A stretch of DNA of 64,000 nt from Bacteroidales bacterium. GTDB taxonomy: Bacteria; Bacteroidota; Bacteroidia; Bacteroidales; GCA-2748055. Positions 1 through 53,137 of this stretch are shown here, piece by piece (within the stretch, counting starts at the first letter, position 1; each line of letters opens with the position of its first letter). The stretch is from positions 1 through 64,000 of the forward strand of contig JAFGWU010000095.1 of the NCBI GenBank assembly GCA_016936975.1, given 5' to 3'. Under the pieces are notes generated by a model that saw only the letters and a list, made by a program, of their open reading frames with translations, was not told where the DNA came from and did no database searches. The translations under genes and the position numbers were made by a program.

Positions 1-2574
1 GGCGTCAAACTGTCACCCGGCGGTTCCTGGACATTTGTCTTTTCCGGCGAGCTTGATTTCTCCATACTTCCTGATGGAACCGGTTACATGGCATTTGTAT
101 ATGAATGTACCGATGCTAATGCGGGGACATGGGAGATCGATAATATACTGTATACCGGCTACCCGGTTGGAGGTTCGGATGCTACGGTTACATCTGCCGT
201 TTATACAGTGGATGATGCGGCAGAAACCATCACGGGGGTCCTTTATAAGAGCAGTCTGGAGGATTTTGAAGCAAACCTGGTTCCCGCCTTAGGTGCTTCT
301 TTCGAAGTGTATGAAGCAGACGGAACCACTGTTGCCACAGACATCCAGTCGGGCTACAAGGTGCTGGTTACCGCAGGGGACGGGACCACTACCAAAACAT
401 ATACCGTTACCGTGGACGACAGCCTGCCCGGCGGACTCTTCTTCTCGGAGTATATCGAGGGAAGCAGTAATAATAAGGCACTGGAGATCTACAATCCCAA
501 CGACGTGGCAGTCAGGCTGGATTATTATCAAATAGCCCAGGCCAGTAATGGCGGCGGATGGCAGTATTACCATACTTTCCCGGCTGGAACGGTTCTGGAA
601 CCCGGCGAGGTATGGGTTATGATAACCGATCAAACCAGTACGGAGCTTTTTGATCCGGCAGAAGCCGACGAAGTGCTTTCATACCCGAGCGTGGTTCACC
701 ATAACGGGAATGATGCCAGGGGATTGATTATTGTAACTTCTGTTGACACCACCCTGGTGGATGTGATCGGTGTTCCCGATGTAAATCCGGGAACAGCATG
801 GGATGTGGCTGGTGTTACCAATGCCACTGCAGAACATACCCTGGTCAGGAAAAACTTTATCCTGGAAGGGACAGACGACTGGGCACTGAGTGCCGGTACG
901 GATGCGGCCAATTCCCAGTGGTTTGTCTATGAACAGAATTTCTTTGACAGCCTGGGTAATCATACTTATTCTTCCTTTGTGCCTTCGGATGATGCCACGG
1001 TTTCATCTTCCGTTTATATCGTGAACGACGAGCTTGGTACCATTACGGATGTACTGGCCTCGGAGGACCTGGAAACCTTCAGGGCAAACCTGGTTCCTGC
1101 TGCAGGAGCATCATTTGAGGTTTATGAGGCTGACGGAACCACCGTCGCGACGGATCTGCAAAGTGACTACCAGGTTATTGTCACTGCAGAGGACGGACTG
1201 ACAACGAAGGTTTATGTCATCACGAAACTGCCTCTGAGCACCGACGCTACCGTAAGCTCATTGGTTTACACTGTTGATGATGGTGCCGGGACTATTACCG
1301 GGGTTCTCTACAAAAGCAGCCTGGCTGCATTTGAAGCCAACCTGATGCCTGCTGACGGCGCATCCTTTGTTGTTTACCAGTCTGACGGTACAACGGCTGC
1401 CACGGATATCCAGACCGGATATAAAGTGGTTGTCACAGCCGAGGATGGGTCCACAACCAAAACCTATACGGTGACTGTGGAAGACAGTATGCCGGAAGGG
1501 CTGTTCTTCTCGGAATATATTGAGGGAAGCAGCAATAATAAGGCATTGGAGGTTTACAATCCGAACGAAAATCCCGTACGGCTCGATTACTATCAGATTG
1601 CCCAATCGGTCAATGGCACCGGCTGGCAGTATTACCATATCTTCCCCGCAGGGGCGGTGCTGGAGGCCGGAGATGTATGGGTTATCATAACCGATCAAAC
1701 CGATCCGGGTCTGTTTGCCCATACCGGCGCCGATGAGATTCTTTCCTATCCAAGCGTTGTCCATCACAACGGGGATGATGCACGGGGATTGATCATTGTG
1801 ACCTCTGAAGACACAACGCTGGTGGATCTGATTGGTGATCCGGATGTCGATCCGGGTACAGGATGGGATGTTGCCGGAGTTGCCAGCGCAACTGCCGAAC
1901 ACACCCTGGTCAGAAAACCTACTGTAATTGAAGGGAATACCGACTGGACTGCAGCAGCAGGGACGAGTGCCGATAATTCGGAGTGGTTTGTCCTGGAACA
2001 AAATGTATTTGACAGCCTTGGAGCCCATTTGATGACAGGTCCGGAATTGTCGCACGATGCCACCATCAGTGATCTGCTTGTGAACGGCACATCGATCCCG
2101 GGATTCACACCCGCACAGCTGACCTATTATTACACCCTCGAGGCAGGGACCACCGAGCTGCCGGTTGTTACAGCAGTTACCAATGATGAGAATGCGGAAG
2201 TAACAGTCAGCGGACCGGTCAATCTCGACGGTACCGAGGCAGAGCGTACCGCCACGGTATTGATTACTGCCGAGGATGGGGAAACCACAAAGACCTATTA
2301 CGTGGTGTTTGATGTGGCGATTGGTATTGATAACAGTCGTGCCGGTCAGATAATGATCTACCCGGTTCCGGCAATGGATTACCTGAACATCAGCAATACG
2401 CATTCAGCGGAATCCGTCAGCATCCTCAATATTACCGGTTCGGTGGTTAAAATGGTTAAGCTTTCGGGCGAGCCATCCGTAAGGCTTGATATCCATAACC
2501 TGAACAGCGGGGTCTATTTTCTCGAAATCAAAACGAACGGTACAGTTAAAGTACGCAGATTCGTTAAGGACTAA
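1..2574 (+). CDS. Secreted multidomain LTD-repeat protein with T9SS C-terminal sorting domain (5' end outside window)
   Basis: Frame 1 is open from base 1 (GVKLSPGGSWTFVFSGELDFSILPDGTGYMAFVY...), so the listed ATG at 88 is internal. Two LTD copies (LFFSEYIEGSSNNKALE.YNP), three DATVSS.VYTVDD...TTKTYTVTV units, and C-terminal IMIYPVPAMDYLNI...GVYFLEIKTNGTVKVRRFVKD. Confidence 0.85.
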   Translation, partial: GVKLSPGGSWTFVFSGELDFSILPDGTGYMAFVYECTDANAGTWEIDNILYTGYPVGGSDATVTSAVYTVDDAAETITGVLYKSSLEDFEANLVPALGASFEVYEADGTTVATDIQSGYKVLVTAGDGTTTKTYTVTVDDSLPGGLFFSEYIEGSSNNKALEIYNPNDVAVRLDYYQIAQASNGGGWQYYHTFPAGTVLEPGEVWVMITDQTSTELFDPAEADEVLSYPSVVHHNGNDARGLIIVTSVDTTLVDVIGVPDVNPGTAWDVAGVTNATAEHTLVRKNFILEGTDDWALSAGTDAANSQWFVYEQNFFDSLGNHTYSSFVPSDDATVSSSVYIVNDELGTITDVLASEDLETFRANLVPAAGASFEVYEADGTTVATDLQSDYQVIVTAEDGLTTKVYVITKLPLSTDATVSSLVYTVDDGAGTITGVLYKSSLAAFEANLMPADGASFVVYQSDGTTAATDIQTGYKVVVTAEDGSTTKTYTVTVEDSMPEGLFFSEYIEGSSNNKALEVYNPNENPVRLDYYQIAQSVNGTGWQYYHIFPAGAVLEAGDVWVIITDQTDPGLFAHTGADEILSYPSVVHHNGDDARGLIIVTSEDTTLVDLIGDPDVDPGTGWDVAGVASATAEHTLVRKPTVIEGNTDWTAAAGTSADNSEWFVLEQNVFDSLGAHLMTGPELSHDATISDLLVNGTSIPGFTPAQLTYYYTLEAGTTELPVVTAVTNDENAEVTVSGPVNLDGTEAERTATVLITAEDGETTKTYYVVFDVAIGIDNSRAGQIMIYPVPAMDYLNISNTHSAESVSILNITGSVVKMVKLSGEPSVRLDIHNLNSGVYFLEIKTNGTVKVRRFVKD

Positions 2575-2594
2575 GATAACAGATCATTTCAAAA

Positions 2595-2631
2595 AAGAAA
2601 AGCAGGGCGTTAAGGCGCCCTGACTTTTCTT
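2595..2631 (+). terminator. Rho-independent (possibly bidirectional) terminator
   Basis: AAGAAAAG-CAGGGCG-TTAAGG-CGCCCTG-A-CTTTTCTT: 7-bp GC stem extended by an 8-bp A/T stem, about 20 bp after the stop codon. Confidence 0.75.
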
Positions 2632-2724
2632 ATATCGTGATGTGAACCAGATAGGATGCGCTCCTGCTTAACCGGGATGCGGTAATCATCCATTTAGAAG
2701 AACCTGATAACAATTAACAGAAAA

Positions 2725-3753
2725 ATGAAAAGAATACTATTTTTGGCCGTGGCGGCCTTTTCCGGTTTAACCCTTTTTGCGCAGGATTGCAGTGACCTCT
2801 TTATTTCCGAGTATATCGAGGGAACCGGGAACAACAAGGGATTGGAGTTCTATAATCCCACCGCAGAGATCATCAACCTTAATGCATATTATGTTGCCAG
2901 GTACAGCAATGGCAATAACAGTTTTGAGTCGGGAGGGATCACACAGCTTCAGGGTTTCATTCAGCCTTATTCCACACATATCCTGGTGAACGGACAGACC
3001 ACTTCCACAGAGACCTCTCCGGCCTGTGACCCGGCTCTTCAGGAACTGGCGCAGCAGCTTGATCATGATTACCCGGCTCCGACCTACATGAATGGCAATG
3101 ATGCCATCGCCCTGTTTAAGGATCCGGTCGGACAGGGCAATCTGGCTGATTTTATCGTGCTCGACCTGTTCGGGATTATCGGGGGAGGTATGCAGCCGGA
3201 TGATGAAGGATGGGCCTCCTTCACGGATACCTGGGTTTACAAAAATATTTACGAGAATAACCAGATCGTGGACAGGGACAGTGTGTACATACAGTACTAT
3301 ATTGTTCCGGAAGGATATTACTGGCTTCCCTGGTCTGCAAACCACTCCCTCGTCCGTAAACATACCGTGAAAGAGGGCGTTAAGACCAATCCCAGTCCCG
3401 AGTTTGTGATTACGCAGGAATGGGATACCATACCGGGCGGGGCCAATCAGTGGGACTCGCTTGGCGCCCATTACTGTGACTGTGAGTTTGCTACAGCGGT
3501 TGAGAATTCAGGGGCAATGCAGAAAGCAGATATTTATCCGAATCCTGTGAGCAATGATTTCTATATCAAGACCCCGGAACCCTTTTATGAGGTGGTTCTG
3601 CTGGATGCTTCCGCAAGGGTCATCTTCAGGAAAAGATATGGTGCCGGAAAAACAGAAGAGATGATACGGGTTCATGATCCGGCTCCGGGGATTTATGTCC
3701 TGAAGATCCTTACGGGTAATGGGATGATAACAGAAAAGGTCCTGATGAATTAG
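2725..3753 (+). CDS. Secreted LTD-domain protein with T9SS sorting domain
   Basis: Signal peptide MKRILFLAVAAFSGLTLFAQ; LFISEYIEGTGNNKGLEFYNPTAE; C-terminal ADIYPNPVSNDFYI...GIYVLKILTGNGMITEKVLMN. Confidence 0.85.
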   Translation: MKRILFLAVAAFSGLTLFAQDCSDLFISEYIEGTGNNKGLEFYNPTAEIINLNAYYVARYSNGNNSFESGGITQLQGFIQPYSTHILVNGQTTSTETSPACDPALQELAQQLDHDYPAPTYMNGNDAIALFKDPVGQGNLADFIVLDLFGIIGGGMQPDDEGWASFTDTWVYKNIYENNQIVDRDSVYIQYYIVPEGYYWLPWSANHSLVRKHTVKEGVKTNPSPEFVITQEWDTIPGGANQWDSLGAHYCDCEFATAVENSGAMQKADIYPNPVSNDFYIKTPEPFYEVVLLDASARVIFRKRYGAGKTEEMIRVHDPAPGIYVLKILTGNGMITEKVLMN

Positions 3754-3824
3754 GAACCTGACTAACATAACCGGGTCAGGGAAACCGGTATCCGGAAAGC
3801 GGAAATCAACAGTAACATAGCTTT

Positions 3825-6596
3825 ATGATAAAAAGACGAATATTAATTCTCCTTTCAGCATTGTGGATCAGTGCGGCTGCACTGGCCCAGCAGGGGCGGA
3901 TTACCGGTATGGTGATCGATGATATTACCGGGGAGGCTCTCATCGGAGCCAACATCGTTTATGAACCCGGAAAGGGAACGGTTTCGGACCTGGAAGGAAA
4001 ATTTGAGCTAACGGTGCCCCGGGGAGCATATACATTGCAGGTCTCCTATGTGGGATACGGGACAGAAACAAGGGAGTTACAGGTTTCGGACCGGATCCTG
4101 GTCCTGGAGTTCAGGCTGAAGTCACTGACCATTGACGAAGTGGTTATTACTGCAGATGTGGCACGTTCCAGGGAAACGCCGGTTGCCTTTACAAATATTA
4201 CCCCGGCGCGGATTGAGGAAGAGCTGGCCGGACGGGATATTCCCCTTATACTGAATACAACGCCCGGTGTATATGCCACGCAGCAGGGGGGTGGAGACGG
4301 GGATGCCCGCATCACCATCCGCGGATTCGATCAGCGGAACCTCGCCGTGATGATTGACGGGATCCCTGTGAATGATATGGAGAACGGATGGGTTTACTGG
4401 TCCAACTGGTTCGGGCTGGATGCCGTACAACGAACCATGCAGGTGCAACGCGGACTGGGTGCCTCACAGCTGGCCCTGCCCTCCGTAGGCGGGACCATAA
4501 ACATTCTCACCATCGGGATCGAAAGCGATATGCGTACTTCTGTGAAACAGGAGGTCGACAGTCAGGGGAAGATCCGTACCTCGTTCGGATTTACAAGCGG
4601 AAAATTGCCCAACGGATGGGGAATCACACTGGCCGGATCCTATAAACGCGGTAATGGGTGGGTGGATAACACCTACTCGGAAGGATGGTTTTACTATGCG
4701 AAGGTTGATAAGAGGATGCATAATCACCTTCTGACCCTTACAGCCATGGGAGCACCCCAGATGCACGACCACCGTTCCTATACCAGGCCCATATCTGCCT
4801 ATGATACGGTGTATGCTAAAAAGCTGGGGATCGATATTGATGAACTGAAGGAGGCTAATCCCAGCTATAATATTTACGGCAAAGGTGTCCAATATAACCA
4901 GCACTGGGGTTACCTGAAAAGGGACCGGTTCAATCCGGATGCGGAAGAGGAGGTTCTGGCCGAACGTTCCAACCAGTATCATAAGCCGCAGTTCACACTC
5001 CGTGATTTCTGGACCATCAGTGACAAACTGAATGTTTCCAACAACCTCTATCTCTCCATCGGTAAGGGGGGAGGCGACCGTCCCATTTCAAGCATCAAGG
5101 ACTCCCAGCTATTTCATGATCCCGATGACCCCCATTACGGTCAGATTAACTGGCAGTCCATTTACAACGCCAATTGCAAGCCGCAGCCCCCTTTCAACAC
5201 GCTTCCGATCAATCCGATCTACAGCGATTCCCTGCTCGTATCGAGCAATTATATGACCCGTCAGCATAACGAACATTACTGGTACGGACTGCTTTCCAAA
5301 GTGAATTATAACATCAGTTCCCGCTTTGACATCAGCGGTGGACTGGATCTGAGATCCTACAAAGGCATCCATTTTACAACTGTCAGGGACCTTCTGGGCG
5401 GCGATTATGCCGTTGACAAATATGATAAAAGGATCGATTATGTGGCCAATCTTGAAGCCGCCATGAAATTCGTCGGAGACACAGTCGACTATTATTATGA
5501 CGGACTGGTGCGCTGGGGCGGGGTGTTTGTCCAGGGAGAATACAAAACGGGAAAGATATCGACCTTCCTGAACCTTACCACGGCTGTCAGCGGTTACAAC
5601 AAAATCGATTACTTCAACCGCGCGGAATCCGGATGGATCTATAAGCAGGGTTTTACGGTCAAATCCGGGCTGAATTATAATCTGACCCAGCATTCCAACC
5701 TGTTCATCAACCTTGGTTATCTCTCCAGGGTCAGGGCCTACCGTTATTTTTACCGGGGCTATACCACCAATTTTGCGGAAGAACTGGATAATGAACTGAT
5801 CAAGGCAATTGAAGCGGGTTATACCTACGGGTCGCCCGTGTTCTCCCTGTTCTTAAATGCTTATTACACCCGCTGGGAGAATAAGCCAACAAACAGGATT
5901 TATTCCACATACAATCTTCAGCCGGGCGATCCCGGGTATGTTCCGGATGATCCTGAGTCGAACAGTGACAAACGTGTCTATGCCGATATTCCGGGTATGA
6001 ACGCACGTCATATGGGTGTCGAACTCGACATGGTGTACAAGGCTCTTCATAACCTGGAGATCCAGGGAATGGCATCGGTCGGGGACTGGATATGGGACTC
6101 CTATGTTGAGAATCTGCAGTTTTATCTTGATGAGGGGAATAATCCTGCGGTCAACAAGGAGGTAGACTTTGATGCCCGTGGCATTCATGTGGGGGATGCC
6201 GCACAGGTCCAGATCGGATCGAGTGTGCGGTATGAGCCATTCAAAGGCTTTTACATGAATGTGCGGCAAACCTATTTTACAAAGTACTACTCCAATTTTA
6301 CCCCTGAAGCAACCACTGATCCTGAAGGTAATGTGCATGACTCCTGGCAGATGCCGGCTTTCAACCTGTTTGACCTGCACAGCGGTTACCATTTCAGGAT
6401 CAAGCCGGTTAAAAAGGTACGGTTTGACATCAGGTTCTCCATGCTGAATCTGCTGAATACAAAATATATCTGGGATGCCACCAATAACGACTCCTACAGT
6501 CCCTATTCCGGATTCCAGACCTTTGATGCCCGTTCGGCAACGGTATTCTTCGGATTGGGAAGAAGATTTACAGTATCATTAAAGATGACATTTTAA
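3825..6596 (+). CDS. TonB-dependent receptor with N-terminal carboxypeptidase-like regulatory domain
   Basis: GRITGMVIDDITGEALIGANIVYEPGKGTVSDLEGKFEL; plug DARITIRGFDQRNLAVMIDGIPVNDMENG; C-terminal aromatic beta-strand (GLGRRFTVSLKMTF). Confidence 0.92.
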   Translation: MIKRRILILLSALWISAAALAQQGRITGMVIDDITGEALIGANIVYEPGKGTVSDLEGKFELTVPRGAYTLQVSYVGYGTETRELQVSDRILVLEFRLKSLTIDEVVITADVARSRETPVAFTNITPARIEEELAGRDIPLILNTTPGVYATQQGGGDGDARITIRGFDQRNLAVMIDGIPVNDMENGWVYWSNWFGLDAVQRTMQVQRGLGASQLALPSVGGTINILTIGIESDMRTSVKQEVDSQGKIRTSFGFTSGKLPNGWGITLAGSYKRGNGWVDNTYSEGWFYYAKVDKRMHNHLLTLTAMGAPQMHDHRSYTRPISAYDTVYAKKLGIDIDELKEANPSYNIYGKGVQYNQHWGYLKRDRFNPDAEEEVLAERSNQYHKPQFTLRDFWTISDKLNVSNNLYLSIGKGGGDRPISSIKDSQLFHDPDDPHYGQINWQSIYNANCKPQPPFNTLPINPIYSDSLLVSSNYMTRQHNEHYWYGLLSKVNYNISSRFDISGGLDLRSYKGIHFTTVRDLLGGDYAVDKYDKRIDYVANLEAAMKFVGDTVDYYYDGLVRWGGVFVQGEYKTGKISTFLNLTTAVSGYNKIDYFNRAESGWIYKQGFTVKSGLNYNLTQHSNLFINLGYLSRVRAYRYFYRGYTTNFAEELDNELIKAIEAGYTYGSPVFSLFLNAYYTRWENKPTNRIYSTYNLQPGDPGYVPDDPESNSDKRVYADIPGMNARHMGVELDMVYKALHNLEIQGMASVGDWIWDSYVENLQFYLDEGNNPAVNKEVDFDARGIHVGDAAQVQIGSSVRYEPFKGFYMNVRQTYFTKYYSNFTPEATTDPEGNVHDSWQMPAFNLFDLHSGYHFRIKPVKKVRFDIRFSMLNLLNTKYIWDATNNDSYSPYSGFQTFDARSATVFFGLGRRFTVSLKMTF

Positions 6597-6625
6597 AAGA
6601 CATTTATAGCAAAAACAAGAACAGA

Positions 6626-9124
6626 ATGAAAAGAATATTTCTATTGGTTTCAATCCTGGCCGTAACCCTGTCAGTAAGGGCACAGGTCATCTCAATCCAT
6701 GATGCAAAAGTTTCCGGGGCAGGTGCATCTGTAACTGTATCCGGTGTGGTTTTAAACGGAGCTGAGCTCGGGATCATACGATATATCCAGGACGAGACAG
6801 GAGGGCTGGCCATTTATGACGGAACCAAAATGGCAGGGATTGAACGTGGCGACAGCATCACGGTTTCCGGCATGCTGGTCGACTACAATAATCTGTTGGA
6901 GATGCAGCCGGTTGCGAATGTGGTTGTTGAAAAGAAAAATGTTGATCTTCCTGTCCCGGTTCTGCTTACTCCTTCCCAGCTGGGAGAAGCCTATGAGGGA
7001 ATGCTGATCCGTATTAATAATGCCGTTTTTGATGATTCGGGAAATGCATTTGAAGCCAAGAAGAATTACGGATTCACAGCCAATGGAGAGTCCGGGGAGG
7101 TACGTATCTCAGATGATGCATCCCCTTTTGTCGGACAGGTCGTTCCATCGAGTGAGGTGATTATCGTGGGGATCCTTTCCCAGTTTTATGATATTTACCA
7201 GGTACTGGTAAGGGGCACGGACGATATCCGTTCTTCAAGCAGGATCAATTTTCTGACCCCGCCGGTACTGAAGGACCTCTCCACATCCGGATTTACGATT
7301 GAATGGGATACCGACTCGACCGGCACAACAGAAATGTTTTACGGCCATACGGATGAACTTGAACTCGGTCAGTTAACCCTGCCGGGAACAGGAAAGCAGC
7401 ACAGCATCACCATTTCAGGAGCGAATCCCTCAGAACTTTATTATATCAAGCCATTCTCGGTGCGAGGAGAAGATACGGCTCATATTTTTACACAGGTTTA
7501 CATCACCCAATCGGTTTCAACCGGGGAAATGAAAGCGTATTTCAATAAACCGGTCGATAACAGTGTATCCATGGGAACCGATGCGGTATACCTTGATCAT
7601 GCCATCGACGACACGTTGATCGCTTATATCAACCGTGCGGAGGAGTCGATCGATTTCACCATTTACAATTTCAATAACGAAGGGATCTCCAATATTTCCG
7701 CGGCGCTCAACAATGCCCATAACAGGGGCGTGGTGGTCAGGGTGGTTTATGATATCAACCAGAGCAATTTCGGGACCGATGAACTGGTCGGCGGAATCGG
7801 AAAGATGGCCAGTCCGGTCAGCAACTATCCCGATTACGGGATCATGCACAATAAGTTCGTGGTTTTCGATGCACTTTCCGATGATCCCGACAAAGCCTTT
7901 GTCTGGACCGGGGCCACCAACTTCACGGACGGACAGATCAATGTGGATCCGAACAATGTAATCATTATCCAGGATAAGAGCCTGGCCATTGCCTACCGTC
8001 TTGAGTTTAATGAGATGTTCGGATCAGAAGGGGCACAGCCCGATCCGGCAAAATCGAGATTCGGTCCGGATAAGCTTGACAATACTCCCCATGAGTTTTT
8101 TATCGGCGGGAAACGGGTGGAATGTTATTTCAGTCCCTCGGATCCAACCCATAAAAATATCCTGAAAACCATTCGGTCGGCCAACACAGACCTGTCTATC
8201 GCTACGATGCTGATCACGAAAACGGACCTGGGCTATGCCATCAGGGATGTGAAGGAGGCCGGAGTGTTATCGGGGGTTCTCGTGAACGATATCGAATCGT
8301 GTAATGAGATTGTTGTAAACACCCTGAGGAACTCACTTGCAGAGAATTTCAGGGTAAGCGGTGAGCCGGGAATCATGCACCATAAATACATGATTGTGGA
8401 CCAGTCGGATGCGGCTTCCGATCCAATCCTTCTGACCGGCTGCCATAACTGGAGTGCATCGGCCGAAGAACGGAACGATGAGAACACCCTCATTATCCAT
8501 GATCAGACCCTCGCCAATATCTATTACCAGGAGTTTACCAACCGTTTTAAATATGGACGGATGCTTGTGGATGCACCCGGGTGCAGTCCCGATTTTGTGA
8601 CCATGAACGGAGGATCAGCATTCAGGTATGATGTCCTGTACAATGACGATATCCCGGGACCGGTCGCCCTGGAGATCACCCGGCAGCCGGCCAATGGTAC
8701 AGCTGTAGTGGAATCGGATATGACCATTACTTACCGCCCGAACAGCGGATTCAACAAGGATCTCGACACGGTATTCTATAAGGTGTGCATGGAATCGAAT
8801 CTCAATATATGTGATTCAAGCATAATGGTCGTTTATGTGAATCTGCCCGTTTCAGTTTTTGAGCAGGAATATAGAAATGGCTTTCCTATTTTCCCCAATC
8901 CAACAGGAGGACTGCTGTATATCCCTGGTTTTGCACGTTTGAAACCCATATTATTGACGGTAACGGATATGACGGGGAGAACAGTGATTCACGAATCAGG
9001 ATTCAATGATGCCGGGAAAGATTACATTCTTGATCTGGGTGAATTGACGGGTGGTATTTATTATTTAACGATTGAAACGGAAAGCGGGAACCGGATGGTT
9101 CATCCGGTTGTGCTTCAGAAATAG
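6626..9124 (+). CDS. Secreted phospholipase-D-superfamily nuclease/phosphodiesterase with N-terminal OB-fold-like (DUF5689/YhcR-like) region and T9SS sorting domain
   Basis: Two HKD motifs (MHNKFVVFD...TGATNFTDG and HHKYMIVD...LLTGCHNWSASAEERNDEN); signal peptide; C-terminal FPIFPNPTGGLLYI...GGIYYLTIETESGNRMVHPVVLQK. Confidence 0.88.
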   Translation: MKRIFLLVSILAVTLSVRAQVISIHDAKVSGAGASVTVSGVVLNGAELGIIRYIQDETGGLAIYDGTKMAGIERGDSITVSGMLVDYNNLLEMQPVANVVVEKKNVDLPVPVLLTPSQLGEAYEGMLIRINNAVFDDSGNAFEAKKNYGFTANGESGEVRISDDASPFVGQVVPSSEVIIVGILSQFYDIYQVLVRGTDDIRSSSRINFLTPPVLKDLSTSGFTIEWDTDSTGTTEMFYGHTDELELGQLTLPGTGKQHSITISGANPSELYYIKPFSVRGEDTAHIFTQVYITQSVSTGEMKAYFNKPVDNSVSMGTDAVYLDHAIDDTLIAYINRAEESIDFTIYNFNNEGISNISAALNNAHNRGVVVRVVYDINQSNFGTDELVGGIGKMASPVSNYPDYGIMHNKFVVFDALSDDPDKAFVWTGATNFTDGQINVDPNNVIIIQDKSLAIAYRLEFNEMFGSEGAQPDPAKSRFGPDKLDNTPHEFFIGGKRVECYFSPSDPTHKNILKTIRSANTDLSIATMLITKTDLGYAIRDVKEAGVLSGVLVNDIESCNEIVVNTLRNSLAENFRVSGEPGIMHHKYMIVDQSDAASDPILLTGCHNWSASAEERNDENTLIIHDQTLANIYYQEFTNRFKYGRMLVDAPGCSPDFVTMNGGSAFRYDVLYNDDIPGPVALEITRQPANGTAVVESDMTITYRPNSGFNKDLDTVFYKVCMESNLNICDSSIMVVYVNLPVSVFEQEYRNGFPIFPNPTGGLLYIPGFARLKPILLTVTDMTGRTVIHESGFNDAGKDYILDLGELTGGIYYLTIETESGNRMVHPVVLQK

Positions 9125-9130
9125 GAAAAC

Positions 9131-10450
9131 ATGGGGTTCGGATTGCGTTGGTTTCTTTCCGGCATCATTGTCTCATGCTGCTTATCAGTCCTGTTTGCTC
9201 AACCGGAGGGTTATTATGATCCGGCAGTCGGCAAATCGGGAGAGGAGTTGAAGTCGATTCTGCATGAGATCATTGATGATCACAATGCCCTTTCCTACGC
9301 TGCATTGTGGGGCGCCCTTATCGATACCGATGAAGACCCTGCGGATCCGGACCGGTTCCTGCTCATTTATACCGGGAGATCATTGCTGAAAACCCAGGTT
9401 TATCCCGACTGGAACAGGGAACATGTTTGGGCCAAGTCGCATGGCGGATTTGACAATGATCCGCCGGCGGGAACAGATCTCCATCATATCAAGCCCTCTG
9501 ATGTTTCTGTCAATGGGGATCGGGGGAACAAGGATTTTGATTTCTGCAGTACAACAGGCACAAGGCACAGTGAAGCTGTGGATTGCTATTATACCTCTTA
9601 TGTATGGGAGCCCGGAGACAACATAAAGGGGGATGTGGCGAGGATGATGTTGTACATGGCAGTCCGCTACAACGGTGATGTTGCGGGAGAACCCGACCTG
9701 GAACTGAGGGAGGATATCCCGACTTCGGGGCCCTACTTCGGAAGATTGTCATCGCTCCTTGCATGGCATAAAATGGATCCGCCCGATGCTTTTGAAATCA
9801 GGAGGAACAACCGAATCCATGAAGCCTACCAGGGTAACCGGAACCCATTTATCGACCATCCTGAATATGCGGAGCTCATATGGCCGGGAACGATGGGACA
9901 GGATACCATTCGCCCTGTCATTGACAGTCTTTCCATTATCAATGAATCATTGATCACCGTTTACTACAGCGAGGATGTGGTTCCTGAAACTTCCCTGCTG
10001 GAAGAGAATTATTCCATAGATAATGGGGCGTTCATAAATGACATTGCGCATCATGGGGTGAGTTTCTCATCGGTGGATCTTTCAGTGAGCAATCTCTTTT
10101 CAGGCAGTTACACATTGTCCGTTAAGGATATCTCAGATTACCACGGAAACCTGCTGGAACCTGTCATGATACCCTTCCAGGTTCAGACCGCTCCCGTGGA
10201 AATGCAATATGGACCAAAGAGTGCAGTTTACCCGAATCCGGCCGGTGACTTTCTGATAGTGAAAGCCTGTTCGGGGAACCATAAGGGGACACTTACCGTT
10301 ATGTCAGCTTCGGGGATCGTGTTCAATTCGCAGTTCCTTCCCGGGGAGTTCCGGCTCGATTTAAGCATGCTGCCCGAAGGGATCTATTTTATCCGCCTGG
10401 CCTGCCATACAGGGTCCTCCCGGCTGGAGCGGTTCATCATACAGAAATAG
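9131..10450 (+). CDS. Secreted endonuclease I family (EndA/NucM-like) nuclease with T9SS sorting domain
   Basis: WNREHVWAKSHGGFDNDPPAGTDLHHIKPSDVSVNGDRGNKDFDF (beta-beta-alpha metal motif); C-terminal SAVYPNPAGDFLIV...GIYFIRLACHTGSSRLERFIIQK. Confidence 0.92.
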   Translation: MGFGLRWFLSGIIVSCCLSVLFAQPEGYYDPAVGKSGEELKSILHEIIDDHNALSYAALWGALIDTDEDPADPDRFLLIYTGRSLLKTQVYPDWNREHVWAKSHGGFDNDPPAGTDLHHIKPSDVSVNGDRGNKDFDFCSTTGTRHSEAVDCYYTSYVWEPGDNIKGDVARMMLYMAVRYNGDVAGEPDLELREDIPTSGPYFGRLSSLLAWHKMDPPDAFEIRRNNRIHEAYQGNRNPFIDHPEYAELIWPGTMGQDTIRPVIDSLSIINESLITVYYSEDVVPETSLLEENYSIDNGAFINDIAHHGVSFSSVDLSVSNLFSGSYTLSVKDISDYHGNLLEPVMIPFQVQTAPVEMQYGPKSAVYPNPAGDFLIVKACSGNHKGTLTVMSASGIVFNSQFLPGEFRLDLSMLPEGIYFIRLACHTGSSRLERFIIQK

Positions 10451-10531
10451 CAGTTTCCCGGAAATAAATGTAACCGATTTGCGTTTATAACGTTAAATGA
10501 AACATGAATTTAACCTTTAATATTGTGCACT

Positions 10532-11356
10532 ATGAAATTAAGCAGCAAGTTTAAAAATTATGGGGTCATACCGATAGCTGTTATACTGATTCTACTGGGA
10601 ACGGCCTGTGAGCAGGAACCGGAAAAACCCGTACTTCCCCCGTTATCAAGCATTGTTATGGATTTTTCAGACTTTGATCAGCAACCGGCTCAGAACAAGG
10701 GTGCAGTACCGACCTATCGCAACTTCATCTATGCCTACTCCAACGTTTTCTTCTGGAACACGTTTGTAACAATAAGCCTTTCGCTGCCGGTTACCGCCTA
10801 TTCCTATGCCCTGGAACAGGATGCAGTCTACCTGGGAGATAACAGCTGGCAATGGTCATTCGATTTTCCATGGGCCCAGCATTATTACACCGCTACCCTT
10901 ACATCGGTGCGAATGAATAACGAAGAGTTTTCCGTTGCCATGAATATAAACCTGAAGGATCAGTCCGGCGAAGGGTTCACCTGGCTGGATGGAGTGGTCA
11001 GGTTCGATCACACACATGCTGAATGGAACCTTTATAAGAATGTTGAAGGGACATCGGTAAAGGTGCTTGAGGTTGACTGTAATATGAACTTTGAGACAGA
11101 GGAAGGGGATATGAGGTACACATATGTAGAACCGGATGAGAAGGAAACAGGGAGCTATATTTACTTCGAACTGTTTACTCCGGATTCTGATGTTTATGAT
11201 GCAAGCTATGAAATCTCCCTCTCAGGAGGTGATATTTTTATTGAATGGAACCGGACATCCAAGGCAGGCCGCGTCATGAGCACGGGTTATTTTGAAGATG
11301 AATTATGGCATTGCTGGGATGCGAACCTGATGGATGTGGCGTGTGGATTAGATTAG
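10532..11356 (+). CDS. Hypothetical lipoprotein, no recognised family
   Basis: Signal-like VIPIAVILILLGTACEQEPEKP with candidate lipidated Cys; start at ATG 10532 preferred over the upstream TTG at 10523. Confidence 0.65.
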   Translation: MKLSSKFKNYGVIPIAVILILLGTACEQEPEKPVLPPLSSIVMDFSDFDQQPAQNKGAVPTYRNFIYAYSNVFFWNTFVTISLSLPVTAYSYALEQDAVYLGDNSWQWSFDFPWAQHYYTATLTSVRMNNEEFSVAMNINLKDQSGEGFTWLDGVVRFDHTHAEWNLYKNVEGTSVKVLEVDCNMNFETEEGDMRYTYVEPDEKETGSYIYFELFTPDSDVYDASYEISLSGGDIFIEWNRTSKAGRVMSTGYFEDELWHCWDANLMDVACGLD

Positions 11357-11440: not shown

Positions 11441-14062
11441 TCATCTTCCGATTCTATAGGAGAACTTCACCAGGAAGATATTGTGCGGATGAATATCCCA
11501 AATATTCCTGAAATCGTCCTGAAAATCCAGGATGCCGTAATTTTCGTATCCTTCCCGCGTTTGCGACCATACCAGGTATAGATAAGATCCGGGACGGTAT
11601 TCCCAACGGAATACCATGTTTGAAAGAAATTCCCTGACATTGAAATCGGGCACGCTGAAGGTATAAGATAATCCGCTTTCCGGTTCATTGATGAGGTAGG
11701 TGTCCCCGGAATCGTTCAGGGTGATCTCGCCGGGGCCGTAAAGCCTGAATCTGTCCGTAAAATCTTCCGCGAGGGGTTCGGTGATTATTTTGAAATCAGA
11801 GTATCTGCCGGTGGCGATAAACGGCTGGCCCCAGTACTGAAGGGTCAGTTCCGGAGTCAGGATCAGGTTGATCCTGAGAGAGAGCGCCAACGTTTTCCGC
11901 TCAATGGAACCAAAAATATAGCGGTCATTTTCTCCTGAATGATATTGCATCACATATTGCAGTTCGCTGTATGCATGATTGAATCCCGGCTCTATAGAAA
12001 AATCCAGGTTGCTGAAAGGCTTATATTCCAATTCGAGTTCAGCACTGTGTCCCTTTCCTGAATTATTCAGACCTCTGTTGTATGAGTATGATAGTTCGGT
12101 GGTGAACTTATTACGGGAATTGGAACCGGCATAGCTCCAGAAATTCAGGTTGCCGGGCCATAGCATGGAGGGCCCCCCTCTGAGTACAAAGTTGGATCGT
12201 ACATCGGATTCGAAATTAACTCCAAGTCCTGTTTCCCAAAAATTTTTAAAGTCTGCATGGCCCTCAAAATTTCCTCCGTAATATTCAAAATGTCCTCCAA
12301 AATCATAACCGGTCCACTGGCCAATATTGAGGCTCATGGAGCGGAACACGCTGAAAGGTTCGGTAAAGTTGTATCCCATCCACAATATCTCGATGATCTC
12401 GCCGTACTCCGAGGCATAACCGATATCGTTCAGTTCCAGCCCCGGGCTTTTGAAATTCAGGAATCCCAGGAAATTGAAATGGCCGCTTATTCTGGAGAAC
12501 TGCATGGTTCCGCCGTAGCCCGACAGGGAATTCCGGCTTGAATCGAGGGTGACATAATCAGCATCGGGTCTCTGGTAGTATTTGCCGGGTGACAGCTGCG
12601 TTCTCAGGATGGACTCCTCGCTTCCCCTGACATGGCTGAAACAGGTGCTCAGCTTAAGGCTGTAATTCCGGTTCAGGAAGTACTGCTGGAAATCCAATCC
12701 CCCGGAATAGGCTCCTGAATGCAGATATTCGAGGTGCTCTTCATCAGTAAACCGGTTGACAGTGGTTGCCATGCCTCCCAGGATGGTATTTCCATTGTTG
12801 ATCTCCCTGATAACTCTTCCGGCGAAATAGTTTGTGAGGGGTTCGACAGTCTCAAAACGCCTTTCCCCGTTAAGGTCTATTTCCGCCTTTTCCCTGGAGG
12901 TGATACTCTCCAGTATTCCGACAGATAAACCATTCCCGGTTTTGCCGCTTAGCTTGGCCGCACCGATAATATTGGTAAAGGCGGGAACATCTGCATATTC
13001 ATTTTCAGTAAGCTCCGGGTAATGATGCGGATTCCTGCCAATCCGCCTGGAATAAAACAGGTTGTCCATGTTGTGAATGGCCAGATCATATTCGAAGATG
13101 CTTCTGCCTTCAATGAAAAAGGGTCTTTTCTCATCATAGAAGGTTTCAAATGCTGTGAGGTTTACCACGGAGGGATCGGCTTCAACCTGCCCGAAATCGG
13201 GATTCAGGGTCATATCCAGGGTGAAATTATTGGTTACACCGATTTTGGCATCCAGTCCGGCGTTGGTATTTAAATCCCTGCCGGATTCCCGGAACGGATC
13301 TCCCCCGTTTTTCTCAAATGTTTCGAGGCCTGTCACTATGTAAGGAGTCAGGTCGGCCTGTTTACGGGGATTGATGCCCTTCAGACCATTCAGCTCCCCG
13401 AGGAAGTGCACCCAGCCGGGCGATTCCCGGGAGATGGGCTGCCAGAGTGATAACTCACTGTTCCGGAAAACTTCACGGGCCGCCTGGAATCCCCATATCC
13501 CGTCACTGTTTTTATCAAAACGTAACTGGCTGAACGGGATCTTTGCCTCCAGGGTCCATCCTTTATCATCGGTCTGAGTCTCAACCCACCAGATGGGATC
13601 CCATGTCTCATCCTCATTCTCCCCGTCATTTGTCATCAGGATATCCATTTTTGAGCCGGCTACACTGGCAAAGAAGGTAAAAGCGGTCCGCAGGTCATGA
13701 TAACTGTCGAACTGGAAGGCCATCATATCCCCGTCCATGTCATCGCGACGGGTCAGGCGGCTGACGATACTGTCGGGGTAAGGATCGAAAGCCCTCATTC
13801 CGACATACATGTAATCCTGATCAAAAATTATTTTGAATTGTGTTGAGAGAGTGGCGGGACGGTCATCATAAGGTTCGTGCATCATAAAATCACCGGCCCA
13901 TTCTGCAGCGCTCCAGGCCTCATCGGTCAGCCAGCCGTCAATTTCCGGGGGAATGGTTATTTCAACAGCAGTGCAGTATCTTTTTTTATAGATTGAATCT
14001 GCCTGTCCGGAAACGGAATAAAAAAAACCACCAAACACCAATAACAATATCAGTCTTTTCAT
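11441..14062 (-). CDS. DUF5916 protein: CBM9-like N-terminal domain plus outer-membrane beta-barrel-like C-terminus
   Basis: EITIPPEIDGWLTDEAWSAAEW...; TLNPDFGQVEADPSVVNLTAFETFYDEKRPFFIEG; terminal strand FLVKFSYRIGR. Confidence 0.88.
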   Translation of the reverse strand: MKRLILLLVFGGFFYSVSGQADSIYKKRYCTAVEITIPPEIDGWLTDEAWSAAEWAGDFMMHEPYDDRPATLSTQFKIIFDQDYMYVGMRAFDPYPDSIVSRLTRRDDMDGDMMAFQFDSYHDLRTAFTFFASVAGSKMDILMTNDGENEDETWDPIWWVETQTDDKGWTLEAKIPFSQLRFDKNSDGIWGFQAAREVFRNSELSLWQPISRESPGWVHFLGELNGLKGINPRKQADLTPYIVTGLETFEKNGGDPFRESGRDLNTNAGLDAKIGVTNNFTLDMTLNPDFGQVEADPSVVNLTAFETFYDEKRPFFIEGRSIFEYDLAIHNMDNLFYSRRIGRNPHHYPELTENEYADVPAFTNIIGAAKLSGKTGNGLSVGILESITSREKAEIDLNGERRFETVEPLTNYFAGRVIREINNGNTILGGMATTVNRFTDEEHLEYLHSGAYSGGLDFQQYFLNRNYSLKLSTCFSHVRGSEESILRTQLSPGKYYQRPDADYVTLDSSRNSLSGYGGTMQFSRISGHFNFLGFLNFKSPGLELNDIGYASEYGEIIEILWMGYNFTEPFSVFRSMSLNIGQWTGYDFGGHFEYYGGNFEGHADFKNFWETGLGVNFESDVRSNFVLRGGPSMLWPGNLNFWSYAGSNSRNKFTTELSYSYNRGLNNSGKGHSAELELEYKPFSNLDFSIEPGFNHAYSELQYVMQYHSGENDRYIFGSIERKTLALSLRINLILTPELTLQYWGQPFIATGRYSDFKIITEPLAEDFTDRFRLYGPGEITLNDSGDTYLINEPESGLSYTFSVPDFNVREFLSNMVFRWEYRPGSYLYLVWSQTREGYENYGILDFQDDFRNIWDIHPHNIFLVKFSYRIGR

Positions 14063-49285: not shown

Positions 49286-52200
49286 TTATCTGTTGATCAT
49301 CATTTTCCTCGTAAGCACGGCGGTCTGCTCCCGGTTCCGGATGGTCATTCTGTAGAAGTAGATTCCGCCGGCCAGCGGTTCACCCGACTGCCCGGTCCCG
49401 TTCCACGAAACCACGTGCGATCCTTCCGGCAAATGACCGTTGGTCAGGGTACAGACTTTCTGCCCGACAAGGTTATAGACGGAGATTTCAACGAATGCCT
49501 CCTGTGGCAGTTTGAAGCGAATATAAGTCAGGTCAGAGAAAGGATTGGGGTAGTTCTGCCCGAGCTGATACGGATCAGCCGCGGCAATCTTTCCGCTGAC
49601 CACGGTTGTGATGGTATCATCCCTTCCGGGTGATCCCCCGATCTCAAATGAAGCGCGCCAGAGGTAGGGATTGTTCTGATCGCCTGAGGGATTCCTGTTG
49701 ACCGGTACCAGTGAATAACCCGTTCCATCCGCTTCCAGGGGCCATGGTGCCCGGTCGTTATACCGAAGGGTACAGAGGGTATCACCGTCCGGACCGGCCA
49801 GGATAATCCATTCTCCGCCATTATCCAGGCTGCCGCTGTATTCACCGGAGGGAGGGAAACCGTAGTGGGACGAAAATCCCTTTTCATCCGAGGCAAGGAC
49901 GATGAATTCCCCGCCCCTGAATGCTGTTTCCGGAGGGAATTTAAAATCGATACCATCGATGAACTTCGCACCTCCGATATCGAGTGTGGCGCTCCCGGTA
50001 TTCTTTAGTTCGATGAATTCAAGATCTCCTTCATCAATGGTATCCGCCGGTAACGGGTGGTAATGCACCTCGGTGATTTTTATTGTATAAAGGTCCTCGG
50101 GAATCATAAAGAACCGGTTATTCAGGGCGCTCCAGTTTCCATCCAGGAAGGTCCGGGCCATGATCCGGGATGAACTATCCAGCTGGATGGGCTCCCCGTA
50201 CATCAAGGCCTCCGGGGAGATGCCCGTCTGAAGCTCTTCGCTTCCTCTGAGTACCGCACTGATAATGAAATCGGAGCTGGAGGTTTTGGTGTTCAGTCCC
50301 TGTATGGTCAGCAGGTTGTCTCCCTCTGTCAGGCGGTCGATATAGCCGGAGATATCAAAATTTTCGGCTGCCGCAGCTTCATGTGAACCCGTGGCGGCCG
50401 AGTTCCATACGCAATTTGCAGGGGCATTTGCACCAGCCACTCTTGTTCCATTAAGATAGGCGGCAAAGCCGTCATCGTAATGCACCGCCAGCGAGAGACC
50501 CTTTATTCTGTTCAGCTGATCAGCGGTGACCGGGAATGGAATACGGATGTAGCAGGAGGTATTTGGCTCCACGCCGTCATCGTGCATGTCGTTTCCCACG
50601 TCCAGGGAGATCAGATTCTCATAACCGGTATTCTTTTCATAACCGACGCCCCCCGGTGCTCCGCTGCAGACCTGCCAGGCATTGTCGTTGTAACCAGGGT
50701 CACTCAGCCAGGTCGCACCGATATCGGATTTCGGAACCAGGGCCTTTTTTCCGGCGTCCGCAGCAACCAGCAGGATTTCATCATTGTTGCCCTGGTCGGG
50801 CCAGAGCGCCGGATCTGTACCATCGGTGGTGTAATAGATCATCCCCCCGGCAGAGCTCATGGTTAATCGGTCGCCCCTGAAGATTTTTTCTCCTGTAAAG
50901 GGTTCATTGTTGATGTAAAAGAGGGGCGCATCCAGTTCAGGGAAGAGCCCGTTTGTGCGGAGCTGGTCAATCAGTGTCGCGGTGCGGGCCGGAAAATAGG
51001 TATTGAACAAAAAGTTCTGCTGGGCCAGCCAGTGGTTCTCCACTGTATAGAGTTCATACGGACCGGACTGCCACGAATGCACATCGCGCCGGTAATCGCC
51101 CCACCGGGAAGATTCAAGGGGTAAAGCCGGTTCAACCTGGTTCTTCCTGATGTCCCATCTTTCCCGAACCGATTCCGGGGTGAGGGGGCCTCCCTGGTAA
51201 CAGAACTTCTGGACCCGGTCGGCAAACAACCGTTTGAACTGATCGTTCTGCCTGAGTTGCTGGAAGAGCCGGCTGGGACAATCGGCATTGTTCTCGTTGA
51301 CCACATTATGGTTCAGCGCTTCCAGCACATGTTCGGCATCCCAGCAGAGGAAAATGAATCCTTTCCCGGGATTGACCCGGTTTCTGATTGCGGCCCAGTT
51401 GTGGTGGTCCCAGTCGGTGTTCCCCCCGTACATATTGAGCAACATATAATCGGCGATGCTCACCACATCCACCATACTATTCAGAGTCGGATCGGGGGTC
51501 CCGTCGGGCCTGTTCCCCTGTATGCGCTGGTAGTTTTCATCGGACGACAGACCGGCATTGGCCAGGTCCATCAGCTGGTCCCATGCGTTGATGCTCCCGT
51601 CTACCACCTCCTGGTAATCCTTGATGACATCAAACTCTTCCGCACTTCCGACAAGGTATGATTCGGCAAAATCGCTGTTGAGCCTTTCCGAAATGGTGTA
51701 GATTCCCCAGTACATTCCGTTGATGAACAGGTGGGCATATACGGAGTTACTGGCCAGGTGGCCCATTTCCCGGTGGGTATCCTTGGTCCATGTATCTCGA
51801 AGGTATTGCGAGCGTGCTCTTTGATCGCTTTCCTGGTGGGTCCAGGTATTATTGAATCCGCCCCGTAATATCAGGGAATTAAAACTGGAGTCGCATTCGC
51901 TGCCAAGCAGGGCATACCTGAGCCTTGAGGGTCCGTATTCTTTTCTGAAGGAGAGCCTGAACGAATGCTTCGGATTCTTTTCCGGTCTCCTGGATTCTCC
52001 GCCGTGGATCTCCATACCGCAATTGACCTGGAGGGAAACGGTTCCGTCACGATTGAAAAATTCCACGGATGCCGGTCGTTCCCAGCCGCGCCCGGTATCG
52101 TTTTCTCCCGGAGCCGGGTACATATAGATGCCTCCGGTTTCGGGATCGGTTGAGAAGTTGAAGAAATGACCCGGATCCGAAATCAGAGAGACGACCGTCA

Positions 52201-53137
52201 GGGATTTCAATCCTTCAATGGCTGATGCGGCAAACGATGAGCTGGTCATCAGTTCGGGGTCCATCTCATAGTCGGCAGGAGCCCTTCCTTCAGAATAGGT
52301 CCACGGGCCCCACTCCACCGGGTACCCTTCCGGATTATTGGGCTGACGGATTACATCCTCCGGAAAGATATAGGATTGTGTGGCCACAGGGCCTGAGATA
52401 CCGTTCTCGTTGATGGCGACGGCCCTGACAATGGCCGTGGTCTGAACCGTTAAAGGTTCGGTATATAATGTCCCGTGTGTTTCACCGGGAAGGGTGCCGT
52501 CGGTGGTAAAGTAGATCGACCCTCCTCCGGCGGCGGATAATTCAAGTTGAAAGGGAGCCTCAAAGAAATTGTGCGGAACGGAAAACACAGGCGGGGGGAC
52601 CTGTATGCCTGTCCGGAGGTTCTCTGTTCCCGGGGTCGGGATGCTGAAGAATGTATAACCGGTGTCGATATAGCCGTAGGAAATATCGGCTTCCTGGGGT
52701 GGGAAGGCCGGGTTGAATTCGGAAACCGCTACACCGCCCGTATTGAAAAGCCCAAGGTATTCACCGTCGCCGCTTACCTGGAAATTGGTGTGCAGCTTTC
52801 CCAGGGGATCTGTCCGGTCCTTGCCAGAGGCAAATATGAGCAGGTGTTTCTGCGGCTGAATATAGAGGGCCGGAAGAGCCCATTTGCCCGGGCGATCCAT
52901 CTCATCCGAAAGGGTCCAGCCGGCCAGCGAAACCGGTTCCGGCCGGGGATTGTACAATTCGATCCAGTCTGAAAAGTCGCCATCCTCGTCGGTGAGGGTG
53001 CTTTCATTCAGAGCCATAAATTCATTGATGCGTATCTCAACCGATTGTGCCCCGAGAGAGTAACCTGACAGCAGGACTGCCATCAAGACAACACATAATC
53101 TATATTTGCAGAGAGAACGGCTGAAGATTCTGTTCAT
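49286..53137 (-). CDS. CotH-kinase/LTD multidomain secreted protein with chitobiase-type C-terminal-like repeats and T9SS sorting domain
   Basis: LTD RINEFMALNESTLTDEDGDFSDWIELYNPRPEPVSLAGWTLSDE; CotH-like PKHSFRLSFRKEYGPSRLRYALLGS...FIFLCWDAEHVLE; second LTD ITEVHYHPLPADTIDEGDLEFIELKN; C-terminal LGQNYPNPFSDLTYIRFKLPQ...RKMMINR. Confidence 0.92.
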   Translation of the reverse strand: MNRIFSRSLCKYRLCVVLMAVLLSGYSLGAQSVEIRINEFMALNESTLTDEDGDFSDWIELYNPRPEPVSLAGWTLSDEMDRPGKWALPALYIQPQKHLLIFASGKDRTDPLGKLHTNFQVSGDGEYLGLFNTGGVAVSEFNPAFPPQEADISYGYIDTGYTFFSIPTPGTENLRTGIQVPPPVFSVPHNFFEAPFQLELSAAGGGSIYFTTDGTLPGETHGTLYTEPLTVQTTAIVRAVAINENGISGPVATQSYIFPEDVIRQPNNPEGYPVEWGPWTYSEGRAPADYEMDPELMTSSSFAASAIEGLKSLTVVSLISDPGHFFNFSTDPETGGIYMYPAPGENDTGRGWERPASVEFFNRDGTVSLQVNCGMEIHGGESRRPEKNPKHSFRLSFRKEYGPSRLRYALLGSECDSSFNSLILRGGFNNTWTHQESDQRARSQYLRDTWTKDTHREMGHLASNSVYAHLFINGMYWGIYTISERLNSDFAESYLVGSAEEFDVIKDYQEVVDGSINAWDQLMDLANAGLSSDENYQRIQGNRPDGTPDPTLNSMVDVVSIADYMLLNMYGGNTDWDHHNWAAIRNRVNPGKGFIFLCWDAEHVLEALNHNVVNENNADCPSRLFQQLRQNDQFKRLFADRVQKFCYQGGPLTPESVRERWDIRKNQVEPALPLESSRWGDYRRDVHSWQSGPYELYTVENHWLAQQNFLFNTYFPARTATLIDQLRTNGLFPELDAPLFYINNEPFTGEKIFRGDRLTMSSAGGMIYYTTDGTDPALWPDQGNNDEILLVAADAGKKALVPKSDIGATWLSDPGYNDNAWQVCSGAPGGVGYEKNTGYENLISLDVGNDMHDDGVEPNTSCYIRIPFPVTADQLNRIKGLSLAVHYDDGFAAYLNGTRVAGANAPANCVWNSAATGSHEAAAAENFDISGYIDRLTEGDNLLTIQGLNTKTSSSDFIISAVLRGSEELQTGISPEALMYGEPIQLDSSSRIMARTFLDGNWSALNNRFFMIPEDLYTIKITEVHYHPLPADTIDEGDLEFIELKNTGSATLDIGGAKFIDGIDFKFPPETAFRGGEFIVLASDEKGFSSHYGFPPSGEYSGSLDNGGEWIILAGPDGDTLCTLRYNDRAPWPLEADGTGYSLVPVNRNPSGDQNNPYLWRASFEIGGSPGRDDTITTVVSGKIAAADPYQLGQNYPNPFSDLTYIRFKLPQEAFVEISVYNLVGQKVCTLTNGHLPEGSHVVSWNGTGQSGEPLAGGIYFYRMTIRNREQTAVLTRKMMINR

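Follow-up and report, generated by a model that had tools for sequence, protein, structure and literature searches.

Described systems and the locus

In the SusCD polysaccharide utilisation loci (PULs), a TonB-dependent importer is encoded together with a surface binding protein and a secreted depolymerase. In Flavobacterium johnsoniae, organic phosphorus scavenging is linked to TonB-dependent transporters through the phosphate utilisation systems (PUS), which have PusCD pairs and periplasmic phosphatases; the same PHO regulon includes EndA1 and EndA2, proteins with LTD and Endonuclease I domains that are listed as orphan genes without a receptor (PMC8115612). Putative DNA-degradation loci of Ca. 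Izemoplasmatales co-locate nuclease, LTD and nucleoside salvage genes for eating DNA (PMC8289736). Riemerella anatipestifer, which has no type IV pili, cannot be naturally transformed without the outer-membrane protein RA0C_RS04915, which carries a carboxypeptidase-regulatory domain, or without the DUF5689/DUF5017 protein encoded downstream of it, RA0C_RS04920 (PMC8459023). Lastly, the extracellular nucleases ExeM and NucH combine LTD and OB-like regions with a secreted nuclease. The locus described here, six genes (g1–g6) at positions 1–11356 of a 64,000-nucleotide stretch of a Bacteroidales bacterium genome (assembly GCA_016936975.1, contig JAFGWU010000095.1; "the window" below is this whole stretch), resembles each of these systems in part. 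Its core, an LTD protein, a TonB-dependent receptor (TBDR) and a secreted nuclease, is deeply conserved, and on balance we regard the locus as probably a nucleic-acid utilisation locus. Its features, with domains assigned by Pfam from matches above the family cut-offs, are:

1..2574, +: g1, surface protein with two LTDs (about residues 140–330 and 490–690), a cadherin-like domain and a type IX secretion system (T9SS) tail; truncated at the 5' end
2603..2622, +: terminator-like hairpin between g1 and g2, strong (8 pairs, 6 of them G-C, then a T-rich tail)
2725..3753, +: g2, LTD protein with a T9SS tail that is proposed to capture nucleic acid or to act as a partner protein; opens the conserved three-gene core
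3825..6596, +: g3, TBDR with CarbopepD_reg_2 and Plug domains (Pfam and tree), proposed importer of nucleic-acid fragments
6626..9124, +: g4, secreted protein with DUF5689 (OB-like), two PLDc_2 domains, Big_9 (Ig-like) and a T9SS tail; phospholipase D-type (PLD) nuclease or phosphodiesterase
9131..10450, +: g5, secreted Endonuclease I (Endonuclease_1 and a T9SS tail, without an OB domain)
10532..11356, +: g6, lipoprotein with no Pfam family

An earlier note, made from the sequence of the window, had described six consecutive plus-strand genes, T9SS-type C-termini on four of the proteins, a terminator between genes 1 and 2, and a TBDR set between LTD proteins and nucleases with gaps of 72 bp or less. 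All of this was borne out: the six reading frames lie where they had been placed, the type IX sorting domain Por_Secre_tail is found above its cut-off in g1, g2, g4 and g5, the hairpin is present, and the gaps from g2 onwards are 71 bp (g2–g3), 29 bp (g3–g4), 6 bp (g4–g5) and 72 bp (g5–g6), after one of 150 bp between g1 and g2. Only the start of g6 was revised, ATG 10532 being more likely than the TTG at 10523. The source genome (3.48 Mb, 89.9% complete) was probed by targeted searches; the window is its contig C41 from base 1, and because the contig begins there, the 5' end of g1 is missing.

The locus would work like a utilisation locus, yet by defining features it is neither a PUL nor a PUS, because it has no SusD. 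None of its six proteins matches SusD, in contrast to the SusCD loci and to the PusCD pairs of PUS; it encodes no glycoside hydrolase, nucleases exported by the T9SS standing there instead; and its receptor stands apart from the genome's other TBDRs. Its nucleases, unlike EndA1 and EndA2, accompany a receptor. In comparison with ExeM and NucH, the locus has no endonuclease/exonuclease/phosphatase domain, the functions are split over separate proteins, and the similarities fall far under the family cut-offs. The Izemoplasmatales loci belong to another phylum, consist of other genes and have no TonB receptor or T9SS (PMC8289736). In the Riemerella pair, too, the TBDR gene immediately precedes a DUF5689 gene, and receptors with such a pair share a superclade with g3, but they form a separate clade; the pair includes neither an LTD protein nor a nuclease domain, and its known role is transformation (PMC8459023). 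A literature search, with subscription journals and preprints outside its coverage, found no paper describing the LTD-TBDR-nuclease gene set.

Recurrence of the LTD-TBDR-nuclease core

Related loci were gathered by TBDR similarity alone, and neighbouring genes played no part in the selection. A whole-genome search of the class with only the receptor yielded 60 neighbourhoods, to which 80 named loci were added through receptor alignment and 40 from the family and order; L-numbers below are labels of these receptor loci. Gene orders were established from reading-frame calls and phmmer searches with the window's domains. The clade of the window receptor comprises 143 non-redundant receptors, and counts are given over evaluable loci.

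In this clade, 132 of 136 loci have an LTD gene immediately before that of the receptor and on its strand, a nuclease gene adjoins the receptor in 120 of 129, and the two occur together in 115 of 124, with median gaps of 53 bp between LTD gene and receptor and 20 bp between receptor and nuclease. Among 31 outgroup TBDRs, none has an LTD neighbour and one has a nuclease neighbour, while 11 other TBDRs of the source genome have no LTD, nuclease or DUF5689 gene beside them. Recurrence, together with these two control receptor sets, rules out a chance cluster. Carriers are found in Bacteroidales, Flavobacteriales, Saprospiraceae, Salinivirgaceae, Crocinitomicaceae and others, and gene order is near-fixed across Bacteroidia. 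The earlier note had called for a search for conserved synteny of LTD, TBDR, PLD and EndA genes, and had taken a lack of recurrence in relatives as telling against its DNA-scavenging reading. The set does recur and the LTD-TBDR-nuclease part of the proposed order stands, but PLD and Endonuclease I alternate in it, and the conserved core consists of the LTD gene (g2), the TBDR gene (g3) and a nuclease gene only; g1, the stand-alone g5 and g6 are family-level additions.

The LTD genes upstream of the receptor in relatives encode an LTD in 109 of 109 cases and a T9SS tail in 108. In NCBIfam, g1 and g2 lie nearest the LTD part of ExeM, far under the cut-offs (88.8 bits for g1 with the ExeM profile, whose cut-off is 1300). 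The structure model of g2 (pLDDT 91.5) has a C-terminal domain that matches solved T9SS sorting domains, which was the sole meaningful match in the fold search; for its LTD part, no solved DNA-binding protein was among the matches. Charge was considered as a sign of DNA binding and gave no support, as the LTD protein and the TBDR are neutral to acidic. Binding of nucleic acid is the presumed role of the LTD proteins.

Secreted nucleases and exchange of the nuclease slot

The two nucleases of unrelated folds recognised in the earlier note, a double-HKD PLD protein and an endonuclease I, were upheld by Pfam and by intact catalytic motifs in g4 and g5. The HKD motifs of g4 read HNKFVVFD (residue 408) and HHKYMIVD (585), and the motifs of g5 NREHVW (95), DLHH (116) and NGDRGN (128). 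g5 scores 138 bits with Endonuclease_1 (PF04231; cut-off 25) and aligns with the solved Endonuclease I 1oup. Endonuclease_1 and DUF5689 each occur in one gene of the source genome, namely g5 and g4. In NCBIfam the PLD part of g4 matches the nuclease NucT best, and its DUF5689 part lies nearest the OB region of ExeM/NucH (22.7 bits with the NucH profile, cut-off 300), both far under the cut-offs; sequence matches of the PLD part include mitochondrial cardiolipin hydrolase.

PLD and Endonuclease I share one slot despite their unrelated folds, with 63 loci having Endonuclease I and 50 having PLD, and about 14 changes from one to the other fall on the receptor tree of these 113 single-type loci (FastTree; weakly supported branches may inflate this number). 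Both types occur in six non-redundant loci, the window included. Two or three nucleases stand in tandem in L112, L116, L129 and the window, either as PLD plus Endonuclease I or as three Endonuclease I genes, which suggests complementary cutting. All 57 sampled nucleases carry a T9SS tail and a single nuclease type (29 PLD, 28 Endonuclease I), and the two HKD (HxKx4D) motifs are kept in 50 of 50 PLD proteins. The common denominator of the slot would be phosphodiester cleavage, and what appears to be conserved is the cleavage of nucleic acid. Because Endonuclease I occupies the shared slot, nucleic acid is its likely substrate, DNA and RNA being indistinguishable from sequence.

The receptor and its transformation-type relatives

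In the receptor tree, g3 falls apart from the other TBDRs of its genome and inside a single clade of LTD-linked receptors (SH-aLRT 98). This clade joins the outgroup and transformation-type receptors at SH-aLRT 99 against the genome's other receptors, among which the tree program warns of long branches. The model of g3 (pLDDT 81) matches solved siderophore, haem, B12 and PQQ receptors generically, at no more than 15% identity, PqqU and siderophore receptors being the closest folds. The earlier note had asked whether the receptor clusters with a well-characterised siderophore or glycan clade; fold and sequence searches gave only generic TBDR similarity, and identity as a siderophore, B12, haem or glycan receptor was rejected.

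The nearest described receptors would be the DUF5689-paired type needed for Riemerella transformation, matched here by gene architecture and not by sequence. A DUF5689 search in genomes of other families led to L230–L235, where the TBDR gene immediately precedes that of a DUF5689 protein; DUF5017 is only weakly supported in them. When scored against the LTD-linked clade's profile, these receptors reach 167–269 bits and the source genome's other TBDRs at most 65 bits. The g3–g4 pair has the same arrangement of TBDR and DUF5689 genes; g3 itself lies outside the clade of DUF5689/DUF5017-paired receptors, which form a separate clade. Tentatively, and with rather less than even confidence, we suggest that this TBDR superclade may import nucleic acid itself, as oligonucleotides or DNA, one branch serving nutrition with LTD proteins and secreted nucleases and another serving natural transformation in place of the type IV pilus/secretin route, which is absent from these bacteria.

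For outgroup receptors of a neighbouring clade (about 850 aa; L210, L211, L220 and L221), the next gene encodes a lipoprotein with DUF5017 (about 620 aa). A profile comparison of these DUF5017 lipoproteins with the DUF5689 region found no similarity, so that the outgroup loci cannot simply be equated with the transformation pair. A PF01663 phosphodiesterase-family gene adjoins the receptors of L220, L224 and L225, and outgroup loci of this kind are possibly another type of organic-phosphorus locus.

A proposed mechanism and the competing explanations

The data above have led us to propose a model whereby the T9SS would export the LTD protein or proteins and the two nucleases to the cell surface, where the LTD and the OB-like DUF5689 domain would hold extracellular DNA (or RNA) and the PLD and Endonuclease I domains would cut it. 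The TBDR would then draw the fragments across the outer membrane with TonB energy, and a periplasmic 5'-nucleotidase/phosphatase would free phosphate and nucleosides. The secreted LTD plus Endonuclease I proteins of F. johnsoniae, Fjoh_4721 and Fjoh_4723, are induced on phosphate depletion (PMC8115612), and Bacteroidota, Lutibacter among them, break down sediment DNA (PMC8289736).

The last step of this model bears on a weak point conceded in the earlier note, that no nucleotidase is adjacent. This is true of the window but not of its relatives: a gene for a 5'-nucleotidase C-terminal domain (5_nucleotid_C) directly follows the nuclease in eight loci (L079, L147, L150, L154, L157, L161, L166 and L176), and in seven of them a calcineurin-like phosphoesterase (metallophosphoesterase) comes next and completes the split 5'-nucleotidase. 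L147 is from Brumimicrobium oceani, a culturable carrier. L046 and L047, which belong to another subclade, have a split pair divergently upstream, a PF01663 phosphodiesterase/nucleotide-pyrophosphatase-family gene is next in line in L059, and in outgroup L228 the receptor is preceded by Endonuclease I and a full 5'-nucleotidase. These neighbours appear to support nucleotide salvage.

Several points weigh against a nucleic-acid utilisation locus. The genome's sole 5_nucleotid_C gene is on contig C71, away from the locus, and in the relatives the nucleotidase neighbours cluster on the phylogeny and may go back to only two or a few independent events. Nine loci of the receptor's clade have no detected nuclease, and PLD domains can act on phospholipids too. 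g2 is acidic (isoelectric point 4.5) and the TBDRs of the clade have a median of 6.4, so that neither is basic. Binding, cleavage and uptake are predicted roles of the locus members, and the sister receptor type, if the analogy in architecture holds, serves transformation and not feeding. The DNA-scavenging reading of the earlier note is partly supported: the gene set is conserved, while the cargo and its import as oligonucleotides, the binding of DNA by LTD, the substrate and the nutritional purpose are what we infer.

Three other explanations were considered. The receptor may be an outer-membrane gate for natural transformation that imports long DNA, with a secreted nuclease making the entry ends and ComEC passing single strands to the cytoplasm. 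The Riemerella precedent (PMC8459023) speaks for such a gate, as do the standing of TBDRs upstream of DUF5689 proteins as the nearest outside relatives of the g3 superclade, the presence of the genome's sole DUF5689 gene in g4 and that of ComEC elsewhere in the genome. However, transformation-type TBDRs form their own clade outside that of g3, the link to RA0C_RS04915 is one of gene architecture, phmmer found no ComEC homologue in any fetched neighbourhood, the 5'-nucleotidase neighbours indicate salvage, and two secreted nucleases would destroy transforming DNA; we consider this explanation, although the main rival, unlikely. Somewhat more doubtful still is that the nucleases merely clear extracellular DNA of biofilm matrix, phage or competitors, while the receptor imports some other helper, such as a metal ion for the nuclease or a small product. 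T9SS tails do place all the enzymes outside the cell, TBDRs mostly import metals, B12 or glycans, and the closest folds of the g3 model are PqqU and siderophore receptors; but those fold matches are generic for TBDRs, and a near-fixed coupling of receptor, LTD protein and nuclease across orders is hard to explain with a cargo unrelated to the nuclease products. The third explanation, very improbable, takes the PLD protein for a phospholipase and the locus for a scavenger of phospholipid head groups, or of organic phosphate in general, and not of nucleic acid. In its favour, PLD/HKD domains include phospholipases, g4 has cardiolipin hydrolase among its matches and PF01663-type genes adjoin related receptors. 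Against it, half of the loci have Endonuclease I, a dedicated nuclease family, in the shared slot, the best NCBIfam match of the PLD part is a nuclease, and the shared OB-like DUF5689 region resembles ExeM/NucH.

Family-level additions, variants and neighbouring genes

g1-like proteins are encoded upstream in nine loci of the window's own family (L190, L191, L193–L197, L201 and L202), and intact g1 homologues also carry CBM_4_9 and Big_5 domains. A stand-alone Endonuclease I like g5 is found within the family in L192, L195 and L196, and homologues of g6, seen solely in the family, hold the same position in L192, L194, L195 and L196. The lipoprotein signal of g6 reads LLGTAC, then EQEPE; with acidic residues behind the lipobox cysteine, the protein is probably surface-exposed.

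In the LTD-linked clade, one subclade (L120, L126 and L156) has no LTD gene. All that L120 and L126 keep is a short T9SS protein, DUF5689-like and lacking a nuclease domain, and the contig of L156 ends at the receptor; the subclade may represent a reduced or altered locus. A lipoprotein of about 150 aa is encoded between receptor and nuclease, or just after the receptor, in 10 loci of a single subclade, and a representative matched no Pfam family. These loci are:

L070, L071, L072, L073, L075, L087, L090, L164, L165, L175: lipoprotein of about 150 aa, gene after the receptor

A dihydroorotase/glycosyltransferase block adjoins 16–19 loci; because its side and its orientation both vary, it was taken for an ordinary housekeeping neighbour. 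In the window, the operon is adjoined by a DUF5916/CBM9 protein gene (11441–14062, minus strand), which is also kept beside it in L192, L194 and L195 of the family; a second DUF5916 protein is encoded at 55395–57647. Of the roughly ten LTD genes in the source genome, one that has no relation to the receptor operon (49286–53137, minus strand) encodes a 1283-aa protein in which two LTDs and a CotH kinase domain are combined with a weak C-terminus of T9SS type.

Implications

Extracellular DNA is a large pool of phosphorus and nitrogen, and Bacteroidota are leading degraders of sediment DNA. A conserved receptor that travels with secreted nucleases is a candidate for the route of DNA fragments through the Bacteroidota outer membrane; the g3-type receptor, kin to the Riemerella transformation type, would be one candidate both for feeding on DNA and for its uptake for recombination. 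The three-gene signature allows candidate DNA foragers to be spotted in metagenomes. Together, these observations suggest that these Bacteroidota feed on, or take in, the DNA that surrounds them much as they do sugars.

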